Shown here in pieces: positions 6,458 to 33,082 of a stretch of DNA of 64,000 bases; within the stretch, counting starts at the first letter, position 1; the number at the start of each line of letters is the position of its first letter. The notes under the pieces are model-generated. The model had not been told where the DNA came from. It did not search any database and saw only the letters and a list, made by a program, of their open reading frames with translations. The position numbers and the translations under genes are program-made. Origin of the DNA: Variovorax sp. HW608 (GTDB lineage: Bacteria > Pseudomonadota > Gammaproteobacteria > Burkholderiales > Burkholderiaceae_C); NCBI RefSeq assembly GCF_900090195.1, contig NZ_LT607803.1, positions 6,846,229-6,910,228 on the forward strand, given 5' to 3'.

Positions 6458-8547
6458 GCTCTTCCTCCAATGGTGGCGGTGATCTTGATGTTGCGGGTGT
6501 CAGGGATCTCCGCGTGGGAGAGCACCTTCAATTGAGACAGGCTGCGCCGCAGGAAGCGCGCGAGCAGCACGCGCAGCGAGTGCTGCACCACGAGCACCGG
6601 CGCCAGGCCGATCTGCTCCTGGCGCGTGATCGCCGCCTGCGTCTGGCGCAGCAGGCTGTCGGCCAGGCCGGGCTCGATGCCGCTGCTGCTGGTCATGGCC
6701 TGCTGCAGGACCGCGTCGAGAGAGGCATCGAGGCCGATCACGTGCAGCTCGGCATCGCCCGGGAACAGCTGCTGCGTGATCGCGCGGCCCAGTGCGAGCC
6801 GCACCATCGACGTGAGCTCGGTCGCATCCTTGATGGTCGAGGCATGCTCGGCGATGACGTCGAGGATGGTGCGCATGTCGCGGATCGAGACTTCCTCGTC
6901 CAGCAGGTTCTGCAGCACCTTGTGCAGCGTGCTGAGCGACACGACCTTGGGCACGAGGTCTTCGGTGAGCTTCGGTTCGGTCTTGGTGATCTGGTCGAGC
7001 AGCTGCTGCACTTCCTGCCGGCCGAGCAGCTCGGCCGCGTGCGTCTGGATCAGGTGGTTCAGGTGCGTCGCCATCACGGTGCACGCGTCGACCACGGTGT
7101 AGCCGTAGATCTGCGCCTGCTGGCGCAGGCTGCCGTCGATCCACACCGCCGGCAGGCCGAAGGCCGGGTCCGTCGTCGGCGTGCCGGGCAGGCTGCCGGT
7201 GACCTGCCCCGGGTTGATCGCCATCCACTGGTTCGGAAAGGCCTCGCCGCGGCCGATCTCCACGCCCTTGAGGCTGATGACGTAGCTATTGGGCTTGATC
7301 TCCAGGTTGTCGCGGATGTGCACCACCGGCACCAGGAAGCCGATCTCCTGCGCGATCTTCTTGCGGATGCTCTTGATGCGGCCCAGCAGCTCGCCCTGCT
7401 GCGCCTGGTCGACCAGCGGGATCAGGCGATAGCCCACTTCCATGCCGAGCGGATCGACCATCGCGACGTCGTCCCAGCTCGCTTCGGTCGCTTCGACCGC
7501 CGGCGCGAGCGCGACCTGCGCGGCCGCCGCCTGCTCCGCCGTCTGGCGCGGCTTGCGGCTCAGCAGCGCCCGGCCGCCGAAGGCCAGCGCACCCGCGATC
7601 AGCAGGAAGGCCAGGTTCGGCATGCCGGGGATCGTCCCCATCAGGCCGATGATGCCGGCCGTGAGGAACAGCACCTGCGGGTTCGAGAACAGCTGGCCGG
7701 TGAGCTGGCGGCCAACGTCTTCGTCGGTGGTCACGCGCGAGACGATCACGCCGGCCGCGGTCGAGATCACCAGCGCCGGGATCTGCGCGACCAGCCCGTC
7801 GCCGATCGCGAGCAGCGTGTAGGTCGTGCCGGCGGTGGAGAAGTCCAGCCCGTGCTGCACCACGCCGACCACCAGGCCGCCGATGATGTTGATCACCATG
7901 ATCATGAGGCCCGCGACCGCGTCGCCACGAACGAACTTGCTGGCACCGTCCATCGAGCCGTAGAAGTCGGCTTCCTGCGCGACCTCGGTGCGGCGCTTGC
8001 GGGCCACGTCCTCGCCGATCAGGCCGGCGTTGAGGTCGGCATCGATCGCCATCTGCTTGCCGGGCATCGCGTCGAGCATGAAGCGCGCACCGACCTCGGC
8101 GATGCGGCCCGCGCCCTTGGTGATCACCATGAAGTTGATGATCACGAGGATGACGAACACCATCACGCCGACCGCGAAGTTGCCGCCGACCAGGAAGTGG
8201 CCGAAGGCCTCGATCACCTTGCCCGCCGCGTCGGGGCCGGTGTGGCCGCGCATCAGCACCACGCGCGTGGACGCGACGTTGAGCGACAGGCGCAGCAGCG
8301 TCGAGAACAGCAGCACCGCCGGGAACGCCGCGAAATCCAGCGCCTTCATGGTGTACATGCTGACCAGCAGCACCATCACCGACATCGCGATGTTGAAGGT
8401 GAACAGCAGGTCGAGCAGGAAGGGCGGCAGCGGCAGCACCATCATGCTCAGGATGAGGATGATGAGGATCGGCCCCGCCAGGCTCTTGAACTGGTTGCCG
8501 GAGAACATTTGCGTCGGCAGACGCATCAGGCTGGCCATGGAATTCAT
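6454..8547 (-). CDS. flhA: flagellar export gate protein FlhA
   Basis: The 697-residue protein is the large export-gate component of the flagellar type III secretion system. The N-terminal half has about eight membrane segments starting with PILIILILSMMVLPLPPFLL. It carries the FHIPEP-family signature RLSLNVASTRVVLM and the cytoplasmic loop GRIAEVGARFMLDAMPGKQM. The C-terminal half, from about residue 350, is the soluble domain that binds chaperone-substrate complexes and forms the nonameric ring. The ATG overlaps the flhB stop by 4 bases (ATGA) and the stop overlaps the flhF start, so flhB-flhA-flhF are translationally coupled. Confidence 0.97.
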   Translation of the reverse strand: MNSMASLMRLPTQMFSGNQFKSLAGPILIILILSMMVLPLPPFLLDLLFTFNIAMSVMVLLVSMYTMKALDFAAFPAVLLFSTLLRLSLNVASTRVVLMRGHTGPDAAGKVIEAFGHFLVGGNFAVGVMVFVILVIINFMVITKGAGRIAEVGARFMLDAMPGKQMAIDADLNAGLIGEDVARKRRTEVAQEADFYGSMDGASKFVRGDAVAGLMIMVINIIGGLVVGVVQHGLDFSTAGTTYTLLAIGDGLVAQIPALVISTAAGVIVSRVTTDEDVGRQLTGQLFSNPQVLFLTAGIIGLMGTIPGMPNLAFLLIAGALAFGGRALLSRKPRQTAEQAAAAQVALAPAVEATEASWDDVAMVDPLGMEVGYRLIPLVDQAQQGELLGRIKSIRKKIAQEIGFLVPVVHIRDNLEIKPNSYVISLKGVEIGRGEAFPNQWMAINPGQVTGSLPGTPTTDPAFGLPAVWIDGSLRQQAQIYGYTVVDACTVMATHLNHLIQTHAAELLGRQEVQQLLDQITKTEPKLTEDLVPKVVSLSTLHKVLQNLLDEEVSIRDMRTILDVIAEHASTIKDATELTSMVRLALGRAITQQLFPGDAELHVIGLDASLDAVLQQAMTSSSGIEPGLADSLLRQTQAAITRQEQIGLAPVLVVQHSLRVLLARFLRRSLSQLKVLSHAEIPDTRNIKITATIGGRA

Positions 8548-9689
8548 GCGGTCTTCGGTGTGTAGGCGAGCGCCTCGGGGATCGGCAGGTCGGTCGGGGT
8601 GCGTGGCGCTTCGCCGACGCCCTCATCCTTCCAGCGCTTGAGCTGGTAGACCCAGGCGAGCACTTCGGCGACCGCGGTGTAGAGGCCGGCGGGGATCTCG
8701 TCACCGAGGCGCGTGTGCTTGTAGAGCGCGCGCGTGAGCGGCGGGGCTTCGAGCACTGCGACCTTGTGCTGGGCCGCGATCTCGCGGATGCGCTGCGCGA
8801 TCAGGTCGGTGCCCTTGGCGACCACGCGCGGGGCGCGCATGTCGCCGTCGATGTACTTCAGGGCCACCGCGAAGTGCGTCGGGTTCGTCACCACGATGTC
8901 GGCCTTCGGCACCTCGGACATCATCCGGCGCCGCGCGATCGCCTGCTGCTGGCGGCGGATCTGCGCCTTGATCTGCGGATCGCCTTCGCTTTCCTTGTGC
9001 TCCTGGCGCAGGTCCTCGCGCGACATGCGCAGCTTGCGGTAGTAGCTGAAGAGCTGCCATGGCACGTCGATCATCGCCACCAGCAGCAGCGCCGCGGCGA
9101 TCAGCGCACAGTCGCGCGCGATGATCATGATCGTCTGGGGAATCGCGGCGCTCACCGGCAGCGCCATGAGCTGCATCACACCGTCGAGGTCGCCCATGAC
9201 CACGAGCCAGGCGACGCCGCCGATCAGCGCCGACTTCGCGAGCGCCTTGACGAGCTCGACGAGCGACTGCGCGGAAAACATCCGCCCTATGCCTGCGAGC
9301 GGGTCGAGCTTGGTGAAGTCGGGCGCCACCGCCTTGCCCGAGAAGAGCCAGCCGCCGAGCAGCATCGGCGCGACCACCGCGGCGACCACCATCATCACGA
9401 ACAGCGGTGCGATGGCCGTGAGGGCATGCAGCACCATCGATCCGGCCTGCACCATCATCTGCGACGGATCGAACGCCGAGTTGCGCTCGAAGCGCAGGCC
9501 CTTGCGCAGCGCGCTCTCCAGAGTGCCGCCCAGCGACCCGCCGCTGAACCACAGGCCGCCGATGGCGGTGCCCAGCATGACCAGCGTGGTCAGCTCGCGG
9601 GACCGGGCAACGTTGCCTTCTTCGCGCGCCTTCTCCAGGCGCCGCGCAGAGGCAGGTTCCGTTTTTTCGAGATCGCTTTCCTCAGCCAT
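8544..9689 (-). CDS. flhB: flagellar export switch protein FlhB
   Basis: FlhB (381 residues) is the export-apparatus protein whose self-cleavage changes substrate class from rod/hook to filament. Four membrane segments lie between about residues 30 and 215. The cytoplasmic domain holds the autocleavage motif NPTH at 269-272 (IVVTNPTHFAVALKY), followed by the cleaved C-terminal part ending in a Pro-rich tail. The ATG has a GGAG site 5 bases upstream. A separate protein resembling only the cleaved C-terminal part is encoded at 20138-20431. The gene is separated from cheZ by 119 bases that contain a strong hairpin. Confidence 0.97.
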   Translation of the reverse strand: MAEESDLEKTEPASARRLEKAREEGNVARSRELTTLVMLGTAIGGLWFSGGSLGGTLESALRKGLRFERNSAFDPSQMMVQAGSMVLHALTAIAPLFVMMVVAAVVAPMLLGGWLFSGKAVAPDFTKLDPLAGIGRMFSAQSLVELVKALAKSALIGGVAWLVVMGDLDGVMQLMALPVSAAIPQTIMIIARDCALIAAALLLVAMIDVPWQLFSYYRKLRMSREDLRQEHKESEGDPQIKAQIRRQQQAIARRRMMSEVPKADIVVTNPTHFAVALKYIDGDMRAPRVVAKGTDLIAQRIREIAAQHKVAVLEAPPLTRALYKHTRLGDEIPAGLYTAVAEVLAWVYQLKRWKDEGVGEAPRTPTDLPIPEALAYTPKTA

Positions 9690-18868: not shown

Positions 18869-19474
18869 TCAGTGGCCTCCGATGGCGGCCCGCGCCTCGG
18901 CGCGCGCCAGAACGGTGTCGGAACCGGACTCGGATTCGGCGGGCGCCTCCGCCCGCTTCGGGCCGCGCGCCTTGCCCGCGCGCGACGGCGGTCGGCAGAG
19001 CACGCACACATAGCCGTGCTTGTTGTCGTGCGCGTGCGCCACGAAGCGGCCGCCGCAGCGGCTGCAGGTGCTCAGCTGGAGCATGTCGCTCTCGAAGAAG
19101 CGCACCATCGTGTAGGCGCGCGTGAAGTCCAGTACGACGTCGCCGCCGTGTGCCTCGATCTGCTCCATGTAGAGGCGGTAGCTCTTGATCAGCGCGCGCA
19201 GCGGCGTCTCGTAGGCCTCTTCCAGCATGAAGCGGTACATGTTGTAGAACATCGAGGAATGGATATTGGCCAACCAGGTCATGTACCAATCCGTCGAAAA
19301 AGGCAAAAGACCCTTGGGCGGCGAAACCCCTTTCAATTCCTTGTAAAGGCGAATCAGGCGTTCACGGCTCAGGCCGACTTCCGATTCCAGAAATTGCAGC
19401 CGCGCGCCGAGCTCGATCAGCTCGATGGCTAATTGAACCTGGCGCACTTCGCCCAGGACGCTTTTCTTGCTCAT
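18869..19474 (-). CDS. flhC: flagellar master regulator subunit FlhC
   Basis: FlhC combines with FlhD to activate class II flagellar promoters. The start is set at the ATG at 19474 (MSKKSVLGEVRQVQLAIELI), which overlaps the flhD stop by four bases; the longer open frame lies within flhD. The 201-residue protein carries four cysteines as two CxxC pairs (STCSRCGG and VCVLCR) that bind zinc in the family. The C-terminal 30 residues are a basic, Ala-rich tail. Confidence 0.96.
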   Translation of the reverse strand: MSKKSVLGEVRQVQLAIELIELGARLQFLESEVGLSRERLIRLYKELKGVSPPKGLLPFSTDWYMTWLANIHSSMFYNMYRFMLEEAYETPLRALIKSYRLYMEQIEAHGGDVVLDFTRAYTMVRFFESDMLQLSTCSRCGGRFVAHAHDNKHGYVCVLCRPPSRAGKARGPKRAEAPAESESGSDTVLARAEARAAIGGH

Positions 19475-19824
19475 GCCATTGCGCCCACTTCGCGCGATTG
19501 AATTTTCCGCGCCGACATCAGGATCGACATATGCGCCTGCTGGAGCGTCGTATCCTTTTCCTCGCCAAATACGGCGAACATCGGATGGTCGTCGAGGCGG
19601 AAACTGCAAAGCAGAAAATTCGACGCCGCCAATTTGACGATCTGGGTTAGAGACATGTTGGCCAGCAAATCCGCGAGTTCGCGGCCGACCCCCAAACGAT
19701 ACATGGCTGCTGCGCGATCCTGCTTGGCCAGCTTTTGAGCGAGCAGCATGTAGGCGAGATTGATGTCGCCGATCTCTTTCGAGATGTCGCCATGTGTCAC
19801 GGCGCCGTCATTTTCCAATTCCAC
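19471..19824 (-). CDS. flhD: flagellar master regulator subunit FlhD
   Basis: FlhD (117 residues) is the partner of FlhC in the FlhD4C2 activator. The start is a GTG at 19824 with GGAG six bases upstream. The core reads INLAYMLLAQKLAKQDRAAA then MYRLGVGRELADLLANMSL, matching the helical dimer of the family. A 313-base AT-rich control region precedes it. It is the first gene of a run that continues through flhC, motA, motB, cheA and the che genes on the minus strand. Confidence 0.96.
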   Translation of the reverse strand: MELENDGAVTHGDISKEIGDINLAYMLLAQKLAKQDRAAAMYRLGVGRELADLLANMSLTQIVKLAASNFLLCSFRLDDHPMFAVFGEEKDTTLQQAHMSILMSARKIQSREVGAMA

Positions 19825-20137
19825 TCTGCACTCCGTTTGATTTTGGCTCTAGTCTATCGACAGAATCTAACAATCTTTAACAACTGGCTGTCATTCATCC
19901 TGAAAGTGAGACTTATCTGACACGACCCAAACGCCCTCCCAATTCAGGGAAACCCTCACGTGGACAATGTAAGTAGAATGCATACAAAAAAATTGGCGCC
20001 CTGCCGCTTCGAATTGATGAAAAAGTATTAAACTCGTCAATGAAACGGGAGATTCAGGATCAATTGTTCGCTTCTTTCATGAAATCCAATTAATACGAAA
20101 CAAAAAGTATCAATTCGAATTTCTCGTGTGAAATAAT
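19825..20137 (-). promoter_or_regulatory. AT-rich control region upstream of flhDC
   Basis: This 313-base stretch holds no supportable gene and is much richer in A+T than the rest of the window. It separates the end of the minus-strand fliK-like/flhB-C genes from flhD, so it must contain the flhDC promoter and probably binding sites for several regulators. It includes several poly-A/T tracts (for example a run of seven A on the plus strand near 19985) that would favour bending or nucleoid-protein binding. I could not identify a convincing -35/-10 pair. Confidence 0.6.
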
Positions 20138-20431
20138 TCATGCCATTCGCCCCGGAATCGCATCCGTGTCACTTTCGAGACCGTGGATCCACGCCATCAG
20201 CTCGGCCACCGCGCGATAAAGCTGCGGCGGGATCTGCGCATCGAGGTTCACCTGCATGAGCAGCCGGACCAGGTCCGCGGACTCGTGCACGTAGAGGCCG
20301 TTCGCCTTCGCCTCGCGCATGATCGATTCGGCCACCACGCCATAGCCCTTCGCCACGACCACGGGCGCCTTCGCGGTGTCGGCATGCGACAGCGCCACCG
20401 CGCCCTGACGTTCGTTCGCACCGGCGGTCAT
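20138..20431 (-). CDS. free-standing FlhB C-terminal-domain protein (FhlB/YlqH-like)
   Basis: The 97-residue product starts at the ATG at 20431, overlapping the stop of the upstream FliK-like gene by four bases. It aligns with the cleaved C-terminal part of FlhB: KAPVVVAKGYGVVAESIMRE compares with APRVVAKGTDLIAQRIRE of FlhB in this window, and QIPPQLYRAVAELMAWIHGLE with EIPAGLYTAVAEVLAWVYQL. It has no membrane part and no NPTH cleavage site. Such proteins can stand in for FlhB-C in some bacteria. Its coupling to a FliK-like gene suggests a dedicated partner, which is inference. Confidence 0.88.
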   Translation of the reverse strand: MTAGANERQGAVALSHADTAKAPVVVAKGYGVVAESIMREAKANGLYVHESADLVRLLMQVNLDAQIPPQLYRAVAELMAWIHGLESDTDAIPGRMA

Positions 20432-21714
20432 GACGGATTCATCCCCGAAACCTGGAAGTCCTGCAGCGACAGGCCGATCGCGTCGAAGCGCCGGGCCAGC
20501 GCCCCGCCGTCCGCCCGCAGGCGTGCCACCGTGGACGCTTCGGCGGCACTGAGGCGCGCATGCACGCCCGAACCGGCGAGGCTGAGCCGCACATCGACCA
20601 CGCCGAGGCGCGGCAGATGCATCGACACCGTGGTGGACCAGGGTCGAGCGGCTTCTTCGCCGCCGGCATGAGATTCGCGTTCGTCGCTCTCCTGCTCGAT
20701 CGACCATTGCATCGGCACGCCGGGCCACGCCTCGCCGTTCCACCGGAAGACCGACGTGGCGAGCAGATCGAGCTGCTGGTGCACCAGCGTGACGGACTGC
20801 GGATGGATCATCCCGGTTGCAACCGGCATGAGCCCGGTCGTCGCGGCATGACCTGGATGGCGAACCGCGCTGCCTTCTGCAACAACGGCACGCTCGGTCA
20901 CGGCCTCGGGCATCGCCGCGGGCGCTTCGGCCCAACGGTAGGCCGCCTCGACACGCGCGGCCTCCGGATGGGCTTCGCGATCGGCGGCAAGCGGCGCATC
21001 ACCGGAAGGCGCCTGTGCTGCCGAGGGCTTTGCCTCTTGGACCTCGGCAGTACCGCCCTGCCCCGCTGCTTCCACGGGTTTCCCGGTGTTCGATGCGAGT
21101 TCGTCGACCACCGGTGCGAGGCCTTGGGCAACCGCCTGCTGCGCGGCTTCGGCGGCCTGCGACGAAGGCCCAGCCACGGTCGGCAGGGCGGGCTGCGCCT
21201 GTGCAGCCAATGCCGCCGCGAGCCCCGGACCCGACCAGCGCGCCTGCGGCTCCTCGGCCATCTGCGCCAGCGTGCGGCTTCCCGCCGCGAGTTCCACGAG
21301 GTGCGATTCGTAGAAGAGTCCGCTCGCCCTGACGTTCTGCGACAGCATGCCGGCAAGCACACCCGCATCCGGCGCCTTCGCCGAAGCCCAGGCGGGCGCG
21401 GCGCCGCGCACCGGGCCCGCATCGCCATGGGCATCCGCCAGCACCGCGCTGATGAGTCGCGCCGCCGCCGACAGCTCGGCCTTGGCGGCGCGCGTCGGCG
21501 AGCCGTCGCGGTACGCCGCGTCGCCGAGGGCGCCGGGCACCAGTCTCTCGAGTGCCGCGTTGGAGGGCAGCCGCACGTCGTTCGCGACGCGCCCCACCTG
21601 CAGCACCGGCCCGGGCGGACCGATCTCGGCCTCGTTCCTGATCGCGAGCACGTCCACGCGCGGCGAAGTCTTCGCGGCGAGCAGCGTGTCGATCAACCCG
21701 GTCAAACCTGTCAT
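20428..21714 (-). CDS. second FliK-like hook-length-control-family protein
   Basis: The 428-residue protein has a Pro/Ala/Gln-rich middle and a C-terminal domain with the FliK hook-domain pattern (STTVSMHLPRLGVVDVRLSL, then ARLRADGGALARRFDAIGLSLQDFQVSG). In FliK this domain touches FlhB-C and triggers the export switch. It is distinct from the FliK encoded between fliJ and fliL at 31724. The N-terminal ~100 residues show nothing I recognise. It lies after fliT by 20 bases and overlaps the FlhB-C-like gene, so the two are probably made together. It is not a truncated copy of the other FliK. Confidence 0.78.
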   Translation of the reverse strand: MTGLTGLIDTLLAAKTSPRVDVLAIRNEAEIGPPGPVLQVGRVANDVRLPSNAALERLVPGALGDAAYRDGSPTRAAKAELSAAARLISAVLADAHGDAGPVRGAAPAWASAKAPDAGVLAGMLSQNVRASGLFYESHLVELAAGSRTLAQMAEEPQARWSGPGLAAALAAQAQPALPTVAGPSSQAAEAAQQAVAQGLAPVVDELASNTGKPVEAAGQGGTAEVQEAKPSAAQAPSGDAPLAADREAHPEAARVEAAYRWAEAPAAMPEAVTERAVVAEGSAVRHPGHAATTGLMPVATGMIHPQSVTLVHQQLDLLATSVFRWNGEAWPGVPMQWSIEQESDERESHAGGEEAARPWSTTVSMHLPRLGVVDVRLSLAGSGVHARLSAAEASTVARLRADGGALARRFDAIGLSLQDFQVSGMNPS

Positions 21715-21734
21715 GGCGCGCAGTCAGTGCCTGT

Positions 21735-22067
21735 TCAGTGCGAGAAGCGGTAGGCCTTGCCCAGCGTCTGCTGCTGATGCAGCGAGCTCATGCGCGCGAT
21801 CAACTGCTCGATCTGCGGCTTCACCAGGCCGCACACCTCGTCCTGGTCCATGCGGATGCGCGCGATCAGCCGCCGCACCTCGTCGTACTGCGCCGGATCG
21901 AGCGCTTCCAGCGGCTGCAGCACCTTGAGCCTGTCGACAAGCGCCGAGCACTGCGCCTCGAGCTCCGGTAGCCGACTCCATTCCTTCCCGCGCGCCAGTT
22001 CAGCCATCAGCGACACGCGCATCGCGAGCTCGCTGTAGCAATGGACGACTTCACTCGTGACTGCCAT
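21735..22067 (-). CDS. fliT: flagellar chaperone FliT
   Basis: FliT is a small helical cytoplasmic chaperone for the cap protein FliD and, in enterics, an inhibitor of FlhDC. The 110-residue product starts at the ATG at 22067, with GAGGGA six bases upstream. It is predicted all-helical (YSELAMRVSLMAELA, LIARIRMDQDEVCGLVKPQIEQLI). Position directly after fliS supports the call, since sequence conservation of FliT is low. Confidence 0.85.
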   Translation of the reverse strand: MAVTSEVVHCYSELAMRVSLMAELARGKEWSRLPELEAQCSALVDRLKVLQPLEALDPAQYDEVRRLIARIRMDQDEVCGLVKPQIEQLIARMSSLHQQQTLGKAYRFSH

Positions 22068-22095
22068 GTTGTCCCTCGTCTTGTGCATTGCCGGT

Positions 22096-22518
22096 TCAGG
22101 CGCGGGCAGGCGCGGCGTCGATCTCGCGCCAGGCCGACCCGATGGATTCGAGAAGTTCCTCGGCTTCGTCCAGCGCCCCGGCGTCGTTGCGCAGGTTCGC
22201 CTGGAAGAGCTTCTGGACGATGTAGTCGTACAAGGCCGACAGGTTGTTCACCAGTTCCTCGCCGGCCGATCCGGCCGCATCGGCGTCGAGCGCGGCCTTC
22301 AGGCCGCTGGCCACGATGTCGATGGCTTTCGAGATCGCGTTGCCCTTGGCGACGATCTCGCCGCAAGCCATGTGATGCCTTGCCATGCCGATGGCCGCCT
22401 TGGCCCCTTCGAACAACATGGAGATCAGCTGATGAGGCGAGGCGCTCATCGCGCTCGTCTCGATGCCGATGCGGGCATACGCGCCGGCGCCGGTCCTGAA
22501 AGTGTGAGGCGTGTACAT
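22096..22518 (-). CDS. fliS: flagellin chaperone FliS
   Basis: FliS binds the flagellin C-terminus and prevents early polymerisation in the cytoplasm. The 140-residue helical protein has the family N-terminus with YARIGIETSAMSASPHQLISMLFEGA and the helix ALDADAAGSAGEELVNNLSALYDYIVQKL. It lies between fliD and fliT and starts 21 bases after the fliD stop. Confidence 0.95.
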   Translation of the reverse strand: MYTPHTFRTGAGAYARIGIETSAMSASPHQLISMLFEGAKAAIGMARHHMACGEIVAKGNAISKAIDIVASGLKAALDADAAGSAGEELVNNLSALYDYIVQKLFQANLRNDAGALDEAEELLESIGSAWREIDAAPARA

Positions 22519-22539
22519 GCAGTGCTCCGATCGGCCGGT

Positions 22540-24003
22540 TTAGCTGCTCTTGCTGCTGCTGGTGGTGGTTCCGTTCATCGCATTGAACTGCTGCGTGAGA
22601 TAGCTCATGGTGCTGTTCATGGTGCTCATCAGCACGTCGAGCTGCTGGAACTGCGTGCGGTAGCGCGCCACCGTGTCGTCCACGCGCGCCGACATCGCGG
22701 TGTATTCGGTGTCGAGCTGCTTGAGCGTCGCGTTGACGCCGTCCGTGGCGACCTGCAGCGCGCCGCCGTCCGCGGTCATGCCGCTCACGAGCGAGCTCAA
22801 TTGCTTGCCATATCCGGCCGTGCTGCCATCCGCGCTGGCGAAGAGCTTCGACACGCCGGCCAGATTCGTCGAGAGCGCCTTGTTCAGCTTGTCGGAATCG
22901 AGCGCCAGCGTGCCGTCCTTCTGGAAGGAAATGCCGACCTCCGACAGCACCTTCATGTCGTTCGAACCGCCGTCCTGCGGCGCCACGAGTGCCTGGCGAA
23001 TCTTCGTCTGGATATTGCGCAGCGTCGCATCGCCCATCAACGCGGCGCCCGTCTTCGTGGTCGCGTTGTAGGCGGTAAGCGACGTGGCGGTCGACTGCAG
23101 GTTGTTGTAGGCCTGGACGAAGGCGGAGATCGCCGACGACACCGACGTGGTGTCATTGGAAAGGTTGACGCTGCTGGTGCCGAGCGACACCAGGTTCAGC
23201 GTCGTGCCCTGGATCGCCTCCTTCACCGTGTTCCTGGCGCTCGACACGGCGATGCCGTTCACGGTCAGTTTCGCATCCTGGCCACTCACCGTCTGCGTCA
23301 GGTTCTGGGTGGCTTCGGGATCGTTGGCGAGCAGGTTCTGGAGCGCCGCATCGCCCGCCACGGAGATCTTCATGCTCGATGCCGCGCCGGTTTGCGTGGA
23401 GGACAGGACCAGGCGTTCCGGCGCCGCGCTGCCATCGCTCACGACAGTGGCCGTCACGCCCGCGTTGGCGGCATTGATGGCGTCGCGGATCCCCTGGAGC
23501 GTGTTGTTGCTTGCGTCGATGGTGATCGGGACCGCAGTGCGCGTGGCGTCCTTCGTGAAGGTGGCACCGGCGTACTTTCCGGTCGTCGCGTCGAGCGTGC
23601 CGCCCGAAACGGTCCCGAAATCGATGGTGATCGTGCCATTGCCGATGGCCGTCGTCGCACTCGCCTGCCCCGCCGAGACCAGGGACTGGGACTGTGCCAG
23701 CTGGGTGACGTTGATCGAATAGCTGCCGGCCACGGCGGTGCTGTCCCCCGTGGCGGTCAGAACGCCCGTGTTGCTCGATGCGGCCTTCACGCTCTGGAAC
23801 AGCGAAGGCGATCCCAGCGCCGCGGCAGCCGACTCGAACCCGCTCAGCACGCTCGACAACTTTCCGTAGGCCGTCAGCTTGGTGGTGTAGCCGGTCTGCT
23901 TGGATTGCAGGTCGACCAGCGGCTGGCTCTCTGCCGTCTGGAGCTGCGTGAGCAGGGTGGAGAGATCGAGATTCGATCCGACGCCGAGGCTGCTGATGGT
24001 CAT
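22540..24003 (-). CDS. fliD: flagellar filament cap protein FliD
   Basis: FliD (487 residues) caps the filament and helps flagellin fold at the tip. The N-terminal region TISSLGVGSNLDLSTLLTQL and the coiled-coil C-terminus (LKQLDTEYTAMSARVDDTVARYRTQFQQLDVLMS) are the conserved D0/D1 parts; the middle is variable. The C-terminus is a Ser/Thr-rich tail. The 182 bases between fliC and this gene contain no sigma-28 promoter that I could see, so it may depend on readthrough from fliC or on another promoter. Confidence 0.95.
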   Translation of the reverse strand: MTISSLGVGSNLDLSTLLTQLQTAESQPLVDLQSKQTGYTTKLTAYGKLSSVLSGFESAAAALGSPSLFQSVKAASSNTGVLTATGDSTAVAGSYSINVTQLAQSQSLVSAGQASATTAIGNGTITIDFGTVSGGTLDATTGKYAGATFTKDATRTAVPITIDASNNTLQGIRDAINAANAGVTATVVSDGSAAPERLVLSSTQTGAASSMKISVAGDAALQNLLANDPEATQNLTQTVSGQDAKLTVNGIAVSSARNTVKEAIQGTTLNLVSLGTSSVNLSNDTTSVSSAISAFVQAYNNLQSTATSLTAYNATTKTGAALMGDATLRNIQTKIRQALVAPQDGGSNDMKVLSEVGISFQKDGTLALDSDKLNKALSTNLAGVSKLFASADGSTAGYGKQLSSLVSGMTADGGALQVATDGVNATLKQLDTEYTAMSARVDDTVARYRTQFQQLDVLMSTMNSTMSYLTQQFNAMNGTTTSSSKSS

Positions 24004-24185
24004 GGTGTTGTTGGTCTGTTGTCTACTCTCGAGCCTCGCGGCCCACGAACACGATCTCGCTGTCCTCTGCGGCCTGGCGACGCCTGGCCGCAGGGGACAG
24101 CGCAGGCCGCACGGATTCGCATGCGAATGCCTGCACCTGGCCGACGCCCTCCCCGAACGGAAAGGACGCCTGCGAGCCGCCCGGA
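24004..24185. other. fliC-fliD intergenic region with a long hairpin and a palindrome
   Basis: No gene is seen. A long inverted repeat of 17 bases per arm with a single mismatch (24058-24074 with 24086-24102, 11-base loop) and a perfect 14-base palindrome ATTCGCATGCGAAT (24115-24128) lie in this gap. No U-run follows the hairpin on the minus strand. It may set the ratio of fliC to fliD message by partial termination or mRNA protection. Confidence 0.6.
24058..24102 (-). repeat. 17-base imperfect inverted repeat (stem-loop)
   Basis: The arms are complementary at 16 of 17 positions around an 11-base loop, GC-rich, and without a following T tract. It lies downstream of the abundant fliC message and upstream of fliD. 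Confidence 0.7.
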
Positions 24186-25424
24186 TTACTGCAGCAGCTT
24201 GAGCACGCCCTGCGTCGTCTGGTTGGCCTGCGCCAGCACCGAGGTACCCGCTTGCTGCAGGATCTGGGCGCGGGTCATGTTCGACACTTCGGTCGCGTAG
24301 TCAGCGTCCTGGATCCGCGAGCGCGACGAAGACAGGTTGGTGATCGAGGTACCGAGGTTCGAGATCACCGAATCGAAACGGTTCTGCACCGCACCCAGCG
24401 AGCTGCGCAGATCGTCGACCTTCTTCAGCGCAGCGTCGATGGCGGCCAGCGGGCTGGCGGTGGTGCCGGTTTGCAGGCTGCTGGCCGTGATCTTGGACGT
24501 ATCGACCGTGAAGGCCGCGGTGCCCGCCGTGGTCGTCGTGTCGGCCGATGCCGGATCGAGCGCGACGTAGCGGTACATCGAGGTGCCGCTGGTGGCACCG
24601 GTGAAGCCCTGATTCACCAGGGAAGCCGCTTCGCCAGCCGATGCGGGCGTGATCTTGACCTCGGCGAACATGTTGCCGTTCTTGTCGGTCACGGCATTGC
24701 CCGTGAGGGTAGCGCCACCGGCGGCCAGGCCGAGGGCCGTCGACAGGGTGTCGGTCGTCTTTTCGGCAACGGTCGTGGTCGTGACGGCCGTGGTGCTGCC
24801 GTAGGCGGCCTGCAGTTGGGCCGCAGTCGGCGCATCGCCGGCAGCGGAGGCGGTCGTGCCGTTGAACGCGAGCGACGCGGTAGCGACCGGGCCGGACACG
24901 TTGAAGCCCTGCATGCCGAGCGTCTTCGAGTCGATTTCCTGCAGGTTGATGCTGATGGTCTCGCCGTCATTGGCGCCGACCTGCACGGTCAGCGGCTTGG
25001 CGGAAGCCGAGAGAACCTTCACGCCGTTGAAGTCGGTCTGGGCCGAGGTACGGTCGATTTCGGCCAGACGCTGCGTGATTTCGTCCTGGATCGACTTCAG
25101 GTCGGAAGCCGAGTTGGAGCCGTTGGCAGCCTGCACCGTCAGTTCGCGCACGCGCTGCAGATTGTTGTTGACCTCGGTCAGCGCGCCTTCCGTCGTCTGC
25201 GCGAGCGAGATGCCGTCGTTGGCATTGCGCTGGGCTTGCGTCAGGCCGTTGATGTTCGCCGTGAAGCGGTTGGCAATGGCCTGGCCGGCGGCGTCGTCCT
25301 TGGCGCTGTTGATGCGCAGACCGGACGACAGGCGCTGGATCGCCGTGTTCAGGGACGATTGCGACTTGCTCAGGTTGTTCTGCGTGAGCAGGGAGAGGCT
25401 GTTGGTGTTGATGACTGACGCCAT
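24186..25424 (-). CDS. fliC: flagellin FliC
   Basis: The 412-residue filament protein has the conserved N-terminal D0/D1 helices (MASVINTNSLSLLTQNNLSK, LSSGLRINSAKDDAAGQAIA) and C-terminal D1/D0 helices (ALGAVQNRFDSVISNL, MTRAQILQQAGTSVLAQANQ). The central domain from about residue 180 to 320 is Thr/Ala-rich and variable. It is the only flagellin gene in the window. An AGGAG site precedes the ATG, and a near-perfect sigma-28 promoter lies about 95 bases upstream, giving a leader of roughly 90 bases. Confidence 0.98.
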   Translation of the reverse strand: MASVINTNSLSLLTQNNLSKSQSSLNTAIQRLSSGLRINSAKDDAAGQAIANRFTANINGLTQAQRNANDGISLAQTTEGALTEVNNNLQRVRELTVQAANGSNSASDLKSIQDEITQRLAEIDRTSAQTDFNGVKVLSASAKPLTVQVGANDGETISINLQEIDSKTLGMQGFNVSGPVATASLAFNGTTASAAGDAPTAAQLQAAYGSTTAVTTTTVAEKTTDTLSTALGLAAGGATLTGNAVTDKNGNMFAEVKITPASAGEAASLVNQGFTGATSGTSMYRYVALDPASADTTTTAGTAAFTVDTSKITASSLQTGTTASPLAAIDAALKKVDDLRSSLGAVQNRFDSVISNLGTSITNLSSSRSRIQDADYATEVSNMTRAQILQQAGTSVLAQANQTTQGVLKLLQ

Positions 25425-25518
25425 GTTCGACTCCTAGTAAGAAGAAAGGGTTGAAAGCTCTGGTCCTTAACGCTGGCTCTTGCCCTTTGCGGGGTTTCGA
25501 ATTCCATCGTTGAGTGAG

Positions 25519-25545
25519 TTATCGACAGGGGCTTTCAATCCTTTA
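25519..25545 (-). promoter_or_regulatory. sigma-28 promoter of fliC
   Basis: The minus strand shows TAAA (25545-25542), exactly 15 bases, then GTCGATAA (25526-25519). The sigma-28 consensus is TAAA-N15-GCCGATAA, so only one position differs. The expected transcription start is near 25512, about 88 bases before the fliC ATG. Confidence 0.88.
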
Positions 25546-25556
25546 GGGCGGCCTTC

Positions 25557-25584
25557 AAAAAAAGTACGCCCCGTGACTCGGGGC
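25557..25584 (-). terminator. rho-independent terminator after fliE
   Basis: A hairpin with a six-base GC stem (GCCCCG / CGGGGC, five-base loop, 25568-25584) is followed on the minus strand, after four bases, by seven T. It starts five bases after the fliE stop and lies just before the fliC promoter, so it insulates fliC from fliE transcription. Confidence 0.88.
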
Positions 25585-25589
25585 GCGCG

Positions 25590-25916
25590 TCAGGCTTGCA
25601 TGGCCATCACTTCCTGATAGGCGGCGACCAGCCGGTTGCGCACCTGCAGGCCGGTCTGGAACGCGACGTTCGCCTTCTGCAGATCGACCATCACGTCGTT
25701 GAGCGCGACACCCGGCTTGCCGAGTTCGAAGGCCTCGGCCTGGCCGTAGGCGCGGTTCTGCGCGCCGCTGATGTTGTCCAGCGAGCGCCTGAGCTCGGCT
25801 GCGAAGCCGCCCGATTCAACGGCGGTGCGGGGCGCGGCGGACGTGGGTGCGAAGCCCGCCTGCACGGCGGTGGCCCGCATCTGCTGCAGGACGGATTCGA
25901 TGGCGGAGATCGACAT
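25590..25916 (-). CDS. fliE: flagellar basal-body protein FliE (MS ring-rod junction)
   Basis: FliE joins the MS ring to the rod and is exported early. The 108-residue product starts at the ATG at 25916 (MSISAIESVLQQMRATAVQA); the open frame upstream is non-coding in character. The conserved C-terminal half reads VALNDVMVDLQKANVAFQTG then LQVRNRLVAAYQEVMAMQA. It is divergent from fliF, as in other betaproteobacteria, and is followed by a clear terminator. Confidence 0.95.
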   Translation of the reverse strand: MSISAIESVLQQMRATAVQAGFAPTSAAPRTAVESGGFAAELRRSLDNISGAQNRAYGQAEAFELGKPGVALNDVMVDLQKANVAFQTGLQVRNRLVAAYQEVMAMQA

Positions 25917-26264
25917 TCGGGTTCTTTCTTGGTTCGTGCTTGGCGGTTGCCAAGGAAGCGCGCAGGCGTTGCGTCGTCCCTTCAGCGTAACAAGGGAAGA
26001 CCCGCATTCAAGCCGCCAACAAACGGCAAAAACCCCCGTTGTTCGGCCCATCGATTTCCGACCGTCTCCAGACAATCGATCGCGAAACGAAAAGTCCGCT
26101 GACCTTGTCATCGGCCTCCGGCATGAAATCTGAACGACAAACTTCAAGCATCCACATGACGACGGACCGCGACTGCGCGACTGCCATGACGAGGATCCGC
26201 GCATGAGCGCCGCCCGGCCAACCGAAGGCGCTCGCACCGCAGTGCGAAGCATGGAGATTTCCCG
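25917..26264. promoter_or_regulatory. divergent fliE-fliF control region
   Basis: This 348-base gap between divergent flagellar genes holds no supportable gene and should contain class II promoters in both directions, most likely driven by FlhDC with sigma-70. I found no sigma-28 or sigma-54 consensus in it. The part nearest fliE is moderately A+T-enriched around 26010-26110. Confidence 0.55.
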
Positions 26265-28028
26265 ATGACCGCTGCGGCAACGCCGGCGAACGCGGCGCCC
26301 ATGGCGGCCTCCTCGCTTCCGCCGTTCCTAGAGCGACTGCGTGCCCAGCCCAGGCTGCCCATGATCGTCGCCGGCGCCGCGCTGGTCGCGGCGGCCGCCG
26401 CCTTCACGTTGTGGAACCACGGGCCCGAGTACAAGGTGCTCTACACCAACGTGTCGGACCGCGACGGCGGCGCGATCATCGCGTCGCTGCAGCAGATGAA
26501 CGTGCCCTACAAGTTCGCCGAAGGCGGCGGCGCGATCCTCATCCCCGGCGACAAGGTGCCCGAGGCGCGCCTGAAGCTCGCGGCGCAGGGCCTGCCCAAG
26601 GCCGGCGGCGTGGGCTTCGAGCTCATGGACAACCAGAAGTTCGGCACCAGCCAGTTCGCCGAGCAGGTCAACTACCAGCGCGCGCTCGAAGGCGAGCTCG
26701 CGCGCTCGATCGAATCCATCGGCAGCGTCGATTCGGCGCGCGTGCATCTCGCGATCCCGAAGCCCTCGCTCTTCGTGCGCGAGCAGAAGAAGCCTTCCGC
26801 CTCGGTGGTGCTCACGCTGCAGCGCGGCCGCAGCATCGACGAAGGCACCGTCAGCGCGATCGCGCACATGATCGCGAGCAGCGTGCCCGAGCTCGACCCA
26901 AAGAGCGTGACCGTGGTCGACCAGCGCGGCAACCTGCTCTCGGCAGCCAACGGCGATGCGCGCGGGCTGGACGTGAGCCAGCTCAAGTACACGCAGGAGA
27001 TCGAGCAGGGCTACATCCGCCGCATCGAGGCGATCCTGCAGCCGATCGTCGGCGCGAACAACGTGCGCGCGCAGGTGGCGGCCGACATCGACTTCTCGGT
27101 CATCGAGCACACCGACGAGAAGTACAGCCCGAACGCGGACCCGACCCGCGCCGCGATCCGCAGCCAGCAGTCGAGCGAATCGAACCAGCGTGGCGCGGTG
27201 CCCCCGGGCGGCGTGCCGGGCGCGCTGTCGAACCAGCCGCCGCTGAATCCGACCGCTCCGATCACCAATCCGCCGCAGCCTGGCCAACCCGGCCAGCCCG
27301 GCGCGCAGAACGCACAGGGCGCCCGCGGTGCCCAGGGCGCGGCTGCCGCGAACGGCGCCAACACCGCCGTCTCGACCGCCGCGGCCGCCGCACCGGGCAG
27401 CTCGCGCAAGGACGTGACGACCAACTACGAGCTCGACCGCTCGATCCGCCACGTGCAGCAAGGCGCCGGCGCGGTCAGGCGCCTGTCGGTCGCGGTGGTG
27501 GTGAACTACAAGGACGCCGTCGAAGGCGGCAAGAGCACGCAGCGCGCGCTGACGCCGGTCGAGATCGACCAGATCCGCAACCTTGCCAAGGAAGCGATGG
27601 GCTTCAGCCAGGAGCGCGGCGATTCGCTCAACGTGGTCAACAGCGCCTTCGCCGACGACCGCGATCCGCCTGCGCCGGAAGTGCCGCTGTGGCGCGACCC
27701 GCAGAACATCGAGCTCGCCAAGACCCTCGGCGGCTACCTGCTCGTCGCGATGCTGGCCCTCCTCGCGTGGTTCGCGGTGCTGCGTCCGCTGCTGCGCAGG
27801 CACCTCGCACCGCCGCCGGCACCGCAACCCGCGGTCGCGGCCGAAGCGCCCACCAGCGACGAGCCGAAGCTGGACGACACGCCGCAGGTCCCGCCGGAAG
27901 AGGCCCTGCGCGTGCGCGAAGCCGCGCGCCAGAAGGCCGACATGGACTACGCCCATCAACTCGCCGAGCAGGACCCCAAGCTCGTCGCCACCCTGATCCA
28001 ACACTGGATGAACAGCAATGATCAGTGA
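26265..28028 (+). CDS. fliF: flagellar MS-ring protein FliF
   Basis: FliF (587 residues) builds the membrane ring on which the flagellum assembles. One membrane segment lies near residues 35-52 (PMIVAGAALVAAAAAFTLWN) and a second near 490-510 (LGGYLLVAMLALLAWFAVL). Between them are the ring-building motifs (EYKVLYTNVSDRDGGAIIAS, KFGTSQFAEQVNYQRALEGE) and a Pro/Gly/Ala-rich periplasmic loop at about 300-370. The cytoplasmic tail ends in DPKLVATLIQHWMNSNDQ, the FliG-binding end. It overlaps fliG by 11 bases. Confidence 0.97.
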   Translation: MTAAATPANAAPMAASSLPPFLERLRAQPRLPMIVAGAALVAAAAAFTLWNHGPEYKVLYTNVSDRDGGAIIASLQQMNVPYKFAEGGGAILIPGDKVPEARLKLAAQGLPKAGGVGFELMDNQKFGTSQFAEQVNYQRALEGELARSIESIGSVDSARVHLAIPKPSLFVREQKKPSASVVLTLQRGRSIDEGTVSAIAHMIASSVPELDPKSVTVVDQRGNLLSAANGDARGLDVSQLKYTQEIEQGYIRRIEAILQPIVGANNVRAQVAADIDFSVIEHTDEKYSPNADPTRAAIRSQQSSESNQRGAVPPGGVPGALSNQPPLNPTAPITNPPQPGQPGQPGAQNAQGARGAQGAAAANGANTAVSTAAAAAPGSSRKDVTTNYELDRSIRHVQQGAGAVRRLSVAVVVNYKDAVEGGKSTQRALTPVEIDQIRNLAKEAMGFSQERGDSLNVVNSAFADDRDPPAPEVPLWRDPQNIELAKTLGGYLLVAMLALLAWFAVLRPLLRRHLAPPPAPQPAVAAEAPTSDEPKLDDTPQVPPEEALRVREAARQKADMDYAHQLAEQDPKLVATLIQHWMNSNDQ

Positions 28029-31723: not shown

Positions 31724-33082
31724 ATGTCCACCGTCATCTCGCCTTCCCTCAACCTGTCGGGTCTGCAGGGCGCAGCCTCCGGTTCGCGCGGCCGCAATGC
31801 CGAAGAGCCCGAAGGCCGCAGCTTCGGCGCCGCGCTCGAGCGCTCGCGTGCGGCCAGCGCGCAAGACGCGCAGCAAACCGCCGAGGCGTCCGGCACTGAG
31901 CCGCTTGCGGGCCGCAAGACCACACGCGCCGCAGACAAGAAGAGCGAGCTCAGCGCGGACGACGTCATGGCGCTCCTCGCGCCGCTTCCGGCGCCCGTCG
32001 TGCCTGGGGCCGCGCAGGGCAAGCCGACGCCCGAGCCGGCGTCGAAGGGCGGTGCCGGGGCGACCGTCGATGGACTCGCCGCCGGCGCGGCATCGGGCGT
32101 CTTGCAGGAACAGGCATCGGCCCTCGCCGACGGCGCACCGCAGACGGCAGCCGATCGAGCCGCTGCGAAGACCGCGCGCGCCGCCGACAGCGCTGACTGC
32201 GCCGACCACGACGCCCATGCCGAGGCGCCGGTGGCAGAGCAGCGGGACGACGCCGCCCTGCCGCTCGCGACCGCCGCTGCCGCCGCGGCGACAGCTTCGA
32301 AGGACGCAAGCGCCAAAGCCGCCGTGCCGGCGCCCACGCCAGCCGCTGCTGGGACCCTGGATGCCAAAACATTCGCCGCCGTGAAAGCGCAAGCCGCCTC
32401 CGATACCACCGCCACGGCGACGAGCGCGGACGAGTCCGCCGTCGCACCGCAAGCCGCTGCAGCCATCGAAACCGCGAAGGCCGACACACCGGCCGCGAAG
32501 CCCGACACCGCATCGATCGGGCCGGCCGCCGCACCCGATGCCCAGGCCCTGGCGGCCCTGCAGGCCAATGCCGCGCCCGCCGCCGACCGCGCCGCCGCGC
32601 CCGCGCAGTCCACGCCGGCGCTGACGGTCGCGCCGCAGGTCGGCAGCACCGAGTGGGGTCCGGCCATCGGCCACCAGATGATCCGCATGAGCGCCAGCGG
32701 CCATCAGGTGGCCGAGCTCAACCTGAATCCGGCCAATCTCGGCCCGCTCAAGGTCACGCTGACGATGGGCGACAACCAGGCGCAGGCGATGTTCGTCTCG
32801 GCGCACGAGTCGGTGCGCAAGGCCGTCGAAGCCGCGCTGCCACAACTCCGCACCACGCTGGCCGAGCAGGGCATCAACCTCGGCCAGACCTCGGTCGGCG
32901 CGGAAGCCCGCCAGCCGAACGGCGGCAGCGCCTTCGCCGAGCAGAACCCGCAGCGCCCGCAGGGCCTGCCGAACTATCCGGGATCGGGCCGCGCCGACAA
33001 CACTGCCGCACAGCCGGTGGCTGCAGCGCCTTCGGCATCCACCTTGCGCCGCGCCACGGCCGGCCTCGACACCTTCGCGTGA
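31724..33082 (+). CDS. fliK: flagellar hook-length control protein FliK
   Basis: FliK (452 residues) measures the hook and signals FlhB to switch export. It is very Ala-rich through residues 1-300, as is common for the flexible ruler part. The C-terminal domain at about 305-400 contains the hook-domain core LNLNPANLGPLKVTLTMGDN and LPQLRTTLAEQGINLGQTSV. A short Ala/Pro tail follows. It is placed in the standard slot between fliJ and fliL. A second, different FliK-like protein is encoded at 20428-21714. Confidence 0.94.
   Translation: MSTVISPSLNLSGLQGAASGSRGRNAEEPEGRSFGAALERSRAASAQDAQQTAEASGTEPLAGRKTTRAADKKSELSADDVMALLAPLPAPVVPGAAQGKPTPEPASKGGAGATVDGLAAGAASGVLQEQASALADGAPQTAADRAAAKTARAADSADCADHDAHAEAPVAEQRDDAALPLATAAAAAATASKDASAKAAVPAPTPAAAGTLDAKTFAAVKAQAASDTTATATSADESAVAPQAAAAIETAKADTPAAKPDTASIGPAAAPDAQALAALQANAAPAADRAAAPAQSTPALTVAPQVGSTEWGPAIGHQMIRMSASGHQVAELNLNPANLGPLKVTLTMGDNQAQAMFVSAHESVRKAVEAALPQLRTTLAEQGINLGQTSVGAEARQPNGGSAFAEQNPQRPQGLPNYPGSGRADNTAAQPVAAAPSASTLRRATAGLDTFA

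Follow-up and report, generated by a model that had tools for sequence, protein, structure and literature searches.

A conserved, overlapping gene pair encoding a second FliK-type protein and a free-standing FlhB-CC homologue alongside full-length FliK and FlhB

Introduction

Why should a flagellar gene cluster that encodes a complete FliK and a complete FlhB also hold a second FliK-type protein and, directly adjoining it, a free-standing homologue of the CC domain of FlhB? The question bears on the flagellar export switch, a textbook case of ordered secretion, for which a 2026 paper (PMC13344023), in the sections available to us, describes that FlhB-CC, which helps to keep the export apparatus in early mode, is lost at hook-basal body completion and that this loss depends on FliK. 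This ejection model rests on Salmonella, and a conserved second FliK together with a free, pre-cut FlhB-CC constitutes a natural test of it.

Genomic context of the gene pair

The window, that is the whole 64,000-nucleotide stretch of Variovorax sp. HW608 DNA that was analyzed, holds on its minus strand the gene for a second FliK-type protein of 428 amino acids (20428..21714), with a match to Pfam Flg_hook PF02120 of 50.8 bits (cut-off 29.8), followed by that for a free-standing FlhB-CC homologue of 97 amino acids (20138..20431, minus strand; PF01312, 58.9 bits, cut-off 24.4). We have coined the labels FliKs and FlhBs for the two. The stop codon TGA of FliKs and the start codon ATG of FlhBs share the sequence ATGA (20428..20431, minus strand), so that the second FliK-type hook domain and the 97-residue FlhB-CC protein overlapping by four bases, as described in the first-pass annotation, are borne out. 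The same holds for the full-size partners that it had listed, canonical FliK (452 amino acids ending in ...GLDTFA, 31724..33082, plus strand; PF02120, 74.1 bits) and full-length FlhB (381 amino acids with NPTH at residues 269-272, 8544..9689, minus strand; PF01312, 424.3 bits). Its wording of a genetically fused pair has to be corrected, as the genes overlap without being fused, and the pair does not consist of the two interacting parts only, FliKs being a whole two-domain protein and thus more than a FliK C-domain. Two PF02120 and two TIGR00789 matches were found in the whole genome (G000), all inside the window, and beyond FliK, FliKs, FlhB and FlhBs this search returned no other match to either family.

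On the minus strand the gene run is headed by fliC (24186..25424) and continues with fliD (22540..24003; PF07195 and PF02465), fliS (22096..22518; PF02561, 111.5 bits), fliT (21735..22088; PF05400, 54.2 bits), FliKs and FlhBs, followed by 313 bp of intergenic sequence and flhD/flhC. As the gaps from fliD to FliKs measure 21, 7 and 20 nt and are followed by the 4-nt overlap, fliD to FlhBs are likely to form a single transcript.

FlhBs, an FlhB-CC domain without the preceding parts

FlhBs aligns only to the last 75 positions of the PF01312 profile (261-335 of 335). Its best NCBIfam family is TIGR00789 flhB_rel, a hypothetical equivalog domain that we take to include B. subtilis YlqH, matched with 76.4 bits over profile positions 2-81 of 84, yet below the curated cut-off of 117.35 bits, which was passed in 0/120 and 0/187 drawn genomes. 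Of the features of FlhB/SctU, FlhBs has the CC domain, as evidenced by the profile and by a fold match, but neither the N-terminal membrane domain nor an NPTH motif after beta1. In an alignment of 72 FlhBs with 20 FlhB sequences (L012, L071, L078 and L079 left out, as well as L037 and L039, which the pattern missed) the CC core is kept, while the TM part, CN, beta1 and NPTH are missing; NPTH occurs in 0/73 FlhBs, and the missing beta1/NPTH region corresponds to columns 255-272 of the alignment. In FlhB the motif lies between beta1 and beta2 of a four-stranded sheet, according to the part of PMC3640470 at hand. The frame upstream of the FlhBs ATG stays open (265 amino acids from a TTG), reading across FliKs as an arginine-rich sequence, and in 30/76 relatives the frame from stop to stop does not exceed 112 amino acids, which leaves no room for a membrane domain. 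Judged by sequence, FlhBs is an FlhB-CC that is made already 'cut', starting at about the autocleavage point of FlhB. In one genome with FlhBs (L110), full FlhB reads NPLH rather than NPTH at this site.

Four residues of FlhB, A286, P287, A341 and L344, presumably line the early-substrate pocket. In the 72 FlhBs the first three are kept in 95, 100 and 100%, respectively, and the fourth is leucine in 84% and methionine in 15%. The pocket itself is described in PMC8983047, of which a part was available. Further positions set FlhBs apart: in FlhB numbering G295, H313, S315 and V319 are near-invariant and P334 is mostly kept, and one residue fewer at FlhB R320 precedes a stretch LLMQ-V-x-L-D. The strict signature fits 65/73 FlhBs of the fliDST type. 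A signature common to both FlhBs types was rejected, as only 2/6 gammaproteobacterial FlhBs fit a loosened form, in a comparison that caught 6/10 FlhBs, 6/9 FlhB and 4/11 canonical FliK regions. From the aligned sequences, the signature (H313, one residue fewer near 320, LLMQ) is a property of the fliDST type.

An AlphaFold2 model of FlhBs, of middling confidence (mean pLDDT 76.2, pTM 0.60; 57.6-76.2 over five models), has its best PDB matches in the crystallized FlhB-CC chains 3b0z and 3b1s, with TM scores of 0.74/0.85 for 3b0z_B. Comparison with four Variovorax relatives (L003, L004, L011 and L005) gave dN/dS values of 0.17, 0.22, 0.19 and 0.14 for FlhBs, which is under purifying selection, and of 0.25, 0.22, 0.22 and 0.38 for FliKs.

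FlhBs separated from FlhB in a first tree with a support of 100/100, and in a second tree of 57 rows, whose bootstrap had not settled, 31 FlhBs stood apart from 26 FlhB with 99/99. The fliDST-type FlhBs form one subgroup in the latter, where columns are few and inner forks weak. This topology would fit, and does not prove, a single old origin of FlhBs. P0002, in which the membrane part and NPTH of FlhB are joined to an FlhBs-type CC domain, falls among the FlhBs in the first tree; known from one contig, it is possibly a natural FlhB/FlhBs chimera, or else an assembly artefact.

FliKs, a FliK-type protein with its own N-terminal motif

FliKs and FliK share the Flg_hook (T3S4) domain and a similar length. 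In FliKs this domain spans residues 353-424 (20443..20658, minus strand), placed by profile and fold matches, and the protein ends four residues behind it. Flg_hook was matched at E 0.01 or better in 53/54 aligned FliKs, and the C-domain resembles both the SS domain of PscP (5cuk) and the C-domain of FliK (2rrl) in profile and fold comparisons. Unlike FliK, FliKs has a distinct motif in its N-terminal part, ends soon after the domain, and is encoded outside the fliFGHIJK run. The motif, SGLFYESHL...EPQA, belongs to a conserved segment of residues 117-173 (21196..21366, minus strand) that is modelled as helices in blocks with a pLDDT of 76-92 and that matched no Pfam family in the FliKs of the window; an SGLFYESH-like motif is present in 73/74 FliKs versus 0/20 canonical FliK. 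The linker is disordered by prediction. No fold emerged for the SGLFYESH segment, as a Foldseek search with the whole model, which effectively probed the C-domain only, reached an E-value of 0.001 with no structure.

The second discrepancy concerns the C-terminus. From the canonical FliK set (without L130, which gave no ORF, and L131, where the ORF was the wrong one) we defined a motif [VIL][DNS]x[FY][AV] following a tail; this VD-x-FA-type ending is found in 17/20 canonical FliK but in 0/74 FliKs. The distance from the LG motif to the C-terminus is 54-74 residues in 67/74 FliKs, five of the 74 rows offering no usable place for the measurement, versus 98-115 residues in 18 canonical FliK. A general statement that all FliKs are tailless had to be rejected: eight FliKs from polar gammaproteobacteria (a count without L152 and L155, whose ORF was the FlhBs frame) end in short LVDEKA- or LINDRA-like motifs.

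Distribution and co-inheritance

Scanning a single genome of each species yielded 77 FlhBs-related loci, the closest of them in Variovorax. FliKs adjoins FlhBs in 74/77; the exceptions are a full FlhB (L078), a locus edge (L019) and an Oscillospiraceae locus (L079) from a genome that has no PF02120 match. Within the 64 loci measured (L012, L019, L071, L078, L024, L027, L044, L051, L052, L055, L056, L057 and L062 left out) the two genes overlap by 1-20 nt in 47 and are separated by 8-135 nt in 17; starts were placed at the ATG nearest the core, else at GTG or TTG, and the overlap count is a low estimate.

Upstream of the pair, fliS is present in 62/77 loci. Seven of the 15 others end too near upstream (L012, L013, L019, L020, L037, L040, L071), two are the exceptions L078 and L079, and in six no fliS was found in the stretch read (L035, L060, L066, L070, L072, L076); the FliKs of these six carry the SGLFYESH motif. 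In ten pairs from polar gammaproteobacteria (L152-L161) no fliC, fliD, fliS or fliT was found beside the pair. The late-gene neighbourhood pointed out in the first-pass annotation thus holds for the majority of loci but does not extend to these ten. Their FliKs are of a different type, ending in LVDEKA-like motifs, the polar flagellation of the hosts being our assumption. Several of these loci have tblastn matches of the motA/motB or cheA-like kind near the pair; the neighbours in L153 are CheW, ParA-type, Memo, AMMECR1 and pentapeptide genes, and L156 also has a pentapeptide gene.

Genome-wide counts agree with the coupling. Among 23 genomes searched, at least two PF02120 matches occur in 22 and at least two TIGR00789 matches in all 23; in some genomes other than G000, TIGR00789 picks up an additional FlhB-like protein with a lower score. 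In G005 (locus L023), two FlhBs-type matches and three to PF02120 are spread over different contigs, and this genome may contain two pairs or be a mixed assembly. Of 120 genomes drawn from the order, TIGR00789 is matched in 86, and in 74 of them this includes an FlhBs-type match as told apart by TIGR00789 score and frame length. In at least 67 of the 74, a PF02120 domain on the same strand lies immediately upstream, and G098, where the two overlap by a few bases and fall outside our filter, is additional to these. Five genomes (G024, G076, G039, G077, G140) have two PF02120 matches each, the second not being among the matches listed, and G120 has an FlhBs-type match but no PF02120 match. Only a full FlhB was found in eight genomes (G070, G108, G141, G031, G057, G088, G093, G107), seven of which have a single PF02120 match and one (G107) two, and in each of four more (G062, G085, G101, G113) there is a single, weak match to TIGR00789 and none to PF02120.

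A second draw from the class, which has some genomes in common with the first, comprised 187 genomes, 106 of them with either domain. Two or more of both domains are present in 68 and at most one of both in 33, while five have an extra TIGR00789 match only (G189, G218, G255, G295, G301) and none an extra PF02120 match only (Fisher p 1.7e-22, a statistic that ignores relatedness); the count is a proxy, as two or more TIGR00789 matches may represent two FlhB-like proteins. At least 49 adjacent pairs were directly readable in this draw. Rare conservation, which had been named at the outset as speaking against a dedicated module, is not what we observe: FliKs adjoins FlhBs in nearly all loci scanned, and 68 genomes of the class draw have at least two of both domains. 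The pair is real and conserved, and it is co-inherited and kept alongside full FliK and FlhB well beyond the local lineage. As this coupling recurs so widely and FlhBs shows dN/dS values of 0.14-0.22, the pair is more than a product of chance.

Do the two proteins also evolve in step? In 20 genomes, the distances of FlhBs and FliKs correlate once those of FlhB-TM are taken into account (r 0.57, Mantel p 0.0005). FliKs correlates with FlhB-CC as well in this set (r 0.42, p 0.0005), and its link to FlhBs is therefore not specific; the correlations would be compatible with contact of FliKs to FlhBs, to FlhB-CC, or to neither. A search with a joined FliKs-FlhBs query returned six proteins. As proof of contact a natural fusion (P0003) was rejected, since it contains both domains but its arginine-rich linker reads as though it were out of frame. 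In another protein, P0001, FlhBs is in one frame with a C-terminal part that by eye resembles a YcgR-type flagellar brake; its precomputed family list gives PF01312 only.

Relation to known systems

FlhBs shares the CC fold and the pocket positions with FlhB (PF01312), but lacks its TM part, CN, beta1 and NPTH and is separate in the trees. A free CC domain beside a full FlhB is also what characterizes FlhX or HP1575, the free FlhB C-terminal homologue of Campylobacterota, and FlhX is further named in papers on Actinobacteria and Leptospira, in the parts that were accessible. The likeness, a separate small FlhB-C-terminal homologue beside full FlhB, is drawn here from the descriptions. For Nitratiruptor, 'flhX-fliK' is mentioned outside the main cluster in the accessible part of PMC9321776. 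The literature thus already contains free homologues of FlhB-CC as well as a flhX-fliK pair. The fliDST-linked operon, the gene overlap and the SGLFYESH-type FliKs are features of the present pair that are absent from the FlhX descriptions as far as these were available. In the open-licence literature we came across neither experimental work on such a pair in beta- or gammaproteobacteria nor a description there of a conserved, overlapping and co-inherited pair with its own FliK type.

Possible functions of the pair

Of the proposal in the first-pass annotation, a second FliK-type/FlhB-CC-type pair kept beside the full-size partners is supported, and contact between the two products, like a role as dedicated regulator, decoy or timer, is putative. 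By their sequences, a free CC domain and a second FliK may be parts for an exchange, for a decoy or for a simple backup. The reading that we rank first, with a probability somewhat short of even, sees in the pair an accessory cassette of the export switch whose FlhB-CC is pre-cut and exchangeable. We place it there because FlhBs starts at about the autocleavage point, keeps the pocket positions, has a signature of its own and travels with a FliK, and because of the 'spare part' title given to the H. pylori protein and the putative chimera P0002. According to this scheme, canonical FliK would, on completion of the hook, eject the CC domain that belongs to FlhB, and free FlhBs would take the vacated place on FlhB-CN, where beta1 of FlhB would complete the FlhBs sheet. 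The seated FlhBs might then keep the gate in one defined state or replace the lost part, and FliKs, binding FlhBs via its C-domain, might bring FlhBs to the gate or remove it. If FlhBs does sit on FlhB, switching would be an exchange that may be reversible.

Against such a cassette stand the unspecific link of FliKs to FlhBs in the distance correlations, the single contig behind P0002, the middling confidence of the FlhBs model and the C-terminal motif of FliK. This motif lies at the place at which, according to the available sections of PMC13344023, an action of FliK on FlhB-CC has been proposed, and the FliKs type is without it. That FliKs simply copies the known FliK/FlhB contact is disfavoured for the same reason, the motif being found in none of the 74.

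The linkage to fliDST suggests that in this lineage the pair would act at or after the switch. In this more specific form FlhBs, as an exchangeable subunit on FlhB-CN, would create a third gate state, with FliKs as its cognate carrier or remover, and many beta- and gammaproteobacteria would swap the switch domain rather than merely lose it; we regard this as unlikely. The neighbourhood does not generally support a post-switch role, as the polar gammaproteobacterial pairs are away from the late genes, and the timing of the pair in the window would be read from the fliD neighbourhood only.

Among the alternatives, a decoy or buffer survives best, although we consider it rather doubtful. Cytoplasmic FlhBs would bind the C-domains of FliK, FliKs or both and thereby prevent the switching of unfinished basal bodies, with FliKs regulating or titrating it. 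The retained CC fold and pocket positions are in line with this, and the overlapping genes would favour a fixed FliKs:FlhBs ratio. A guard against premature switching does exist in Salmonella with Fluke, the counterpart of E. coli Flk, as described in the available sections of PMC13344023. A query with E. coli Flk matched 0/187 class-draw genomes, but as the draw contains no positive control, this result carries no weight for a complementarity of Flk and the pair. The invariant signature of the fliDST-type FlhBs, by contrast, seems more than a passive mimic would need, and FliKs is without the canonical C-terminal motif.

A further possibility is a redundant spare part, FlhBs substituting for lost FlhB-CC without a regulated role in the wild type. 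In the reference list of PMC3040844, a title by Wand et al. 2006 calls H. pylori HP1575 a 'spare part'. We nevertheless hold this to be improbable in the present case, as both the purifying selection on FlhBs (dN/dS 0.14-0.22) and its co-inheritance with a second FliK argue for a function in the wild type. Less probable still is a role confined to late export and outside the hook switch, in which the pair might, for instance, dock FliD or FliC with the chaperones FliS and FliT: the 62/77 loci with fliS upstream agree with it, but the six SGLFYESH loci and the polar gammaproteobacterial pairs are without such neighbours in the stretch read, and FlhBs retains the early-substrate pocket positions. 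An affiliation of the pair with a non-flagellar type III secretion system is very improbable, for the weak HpaP matches in 7/54 FliKs (best 3.5e-5) and the resemblance of the C-domain to PscP are outweighed by the position of the pair within the flagellar cluster and by the TIGR00789 search of G000, which finds only FlhB and FlhBs and thus none of the cognate SctU expected for the injectisome rulers SctP/PscP/HpaP.

Promoter candidates

By eye, no sigma-28 promoter was seen before fliD in 24003-24200, a strict sigma-28 pattern matched nowhere in the window, and a sigma-70 scan of 19400-26400 found none. A loose -10 pattern gave 52 matches versus 32 expected and was set aside. Upstream of fliC, at 25519-25545 on the minus strand, lies a sigma-28-like candidate (TAAAGGAT-11 nt-GTCGATAA), judged against what we take to be the sigma-28 consensus.
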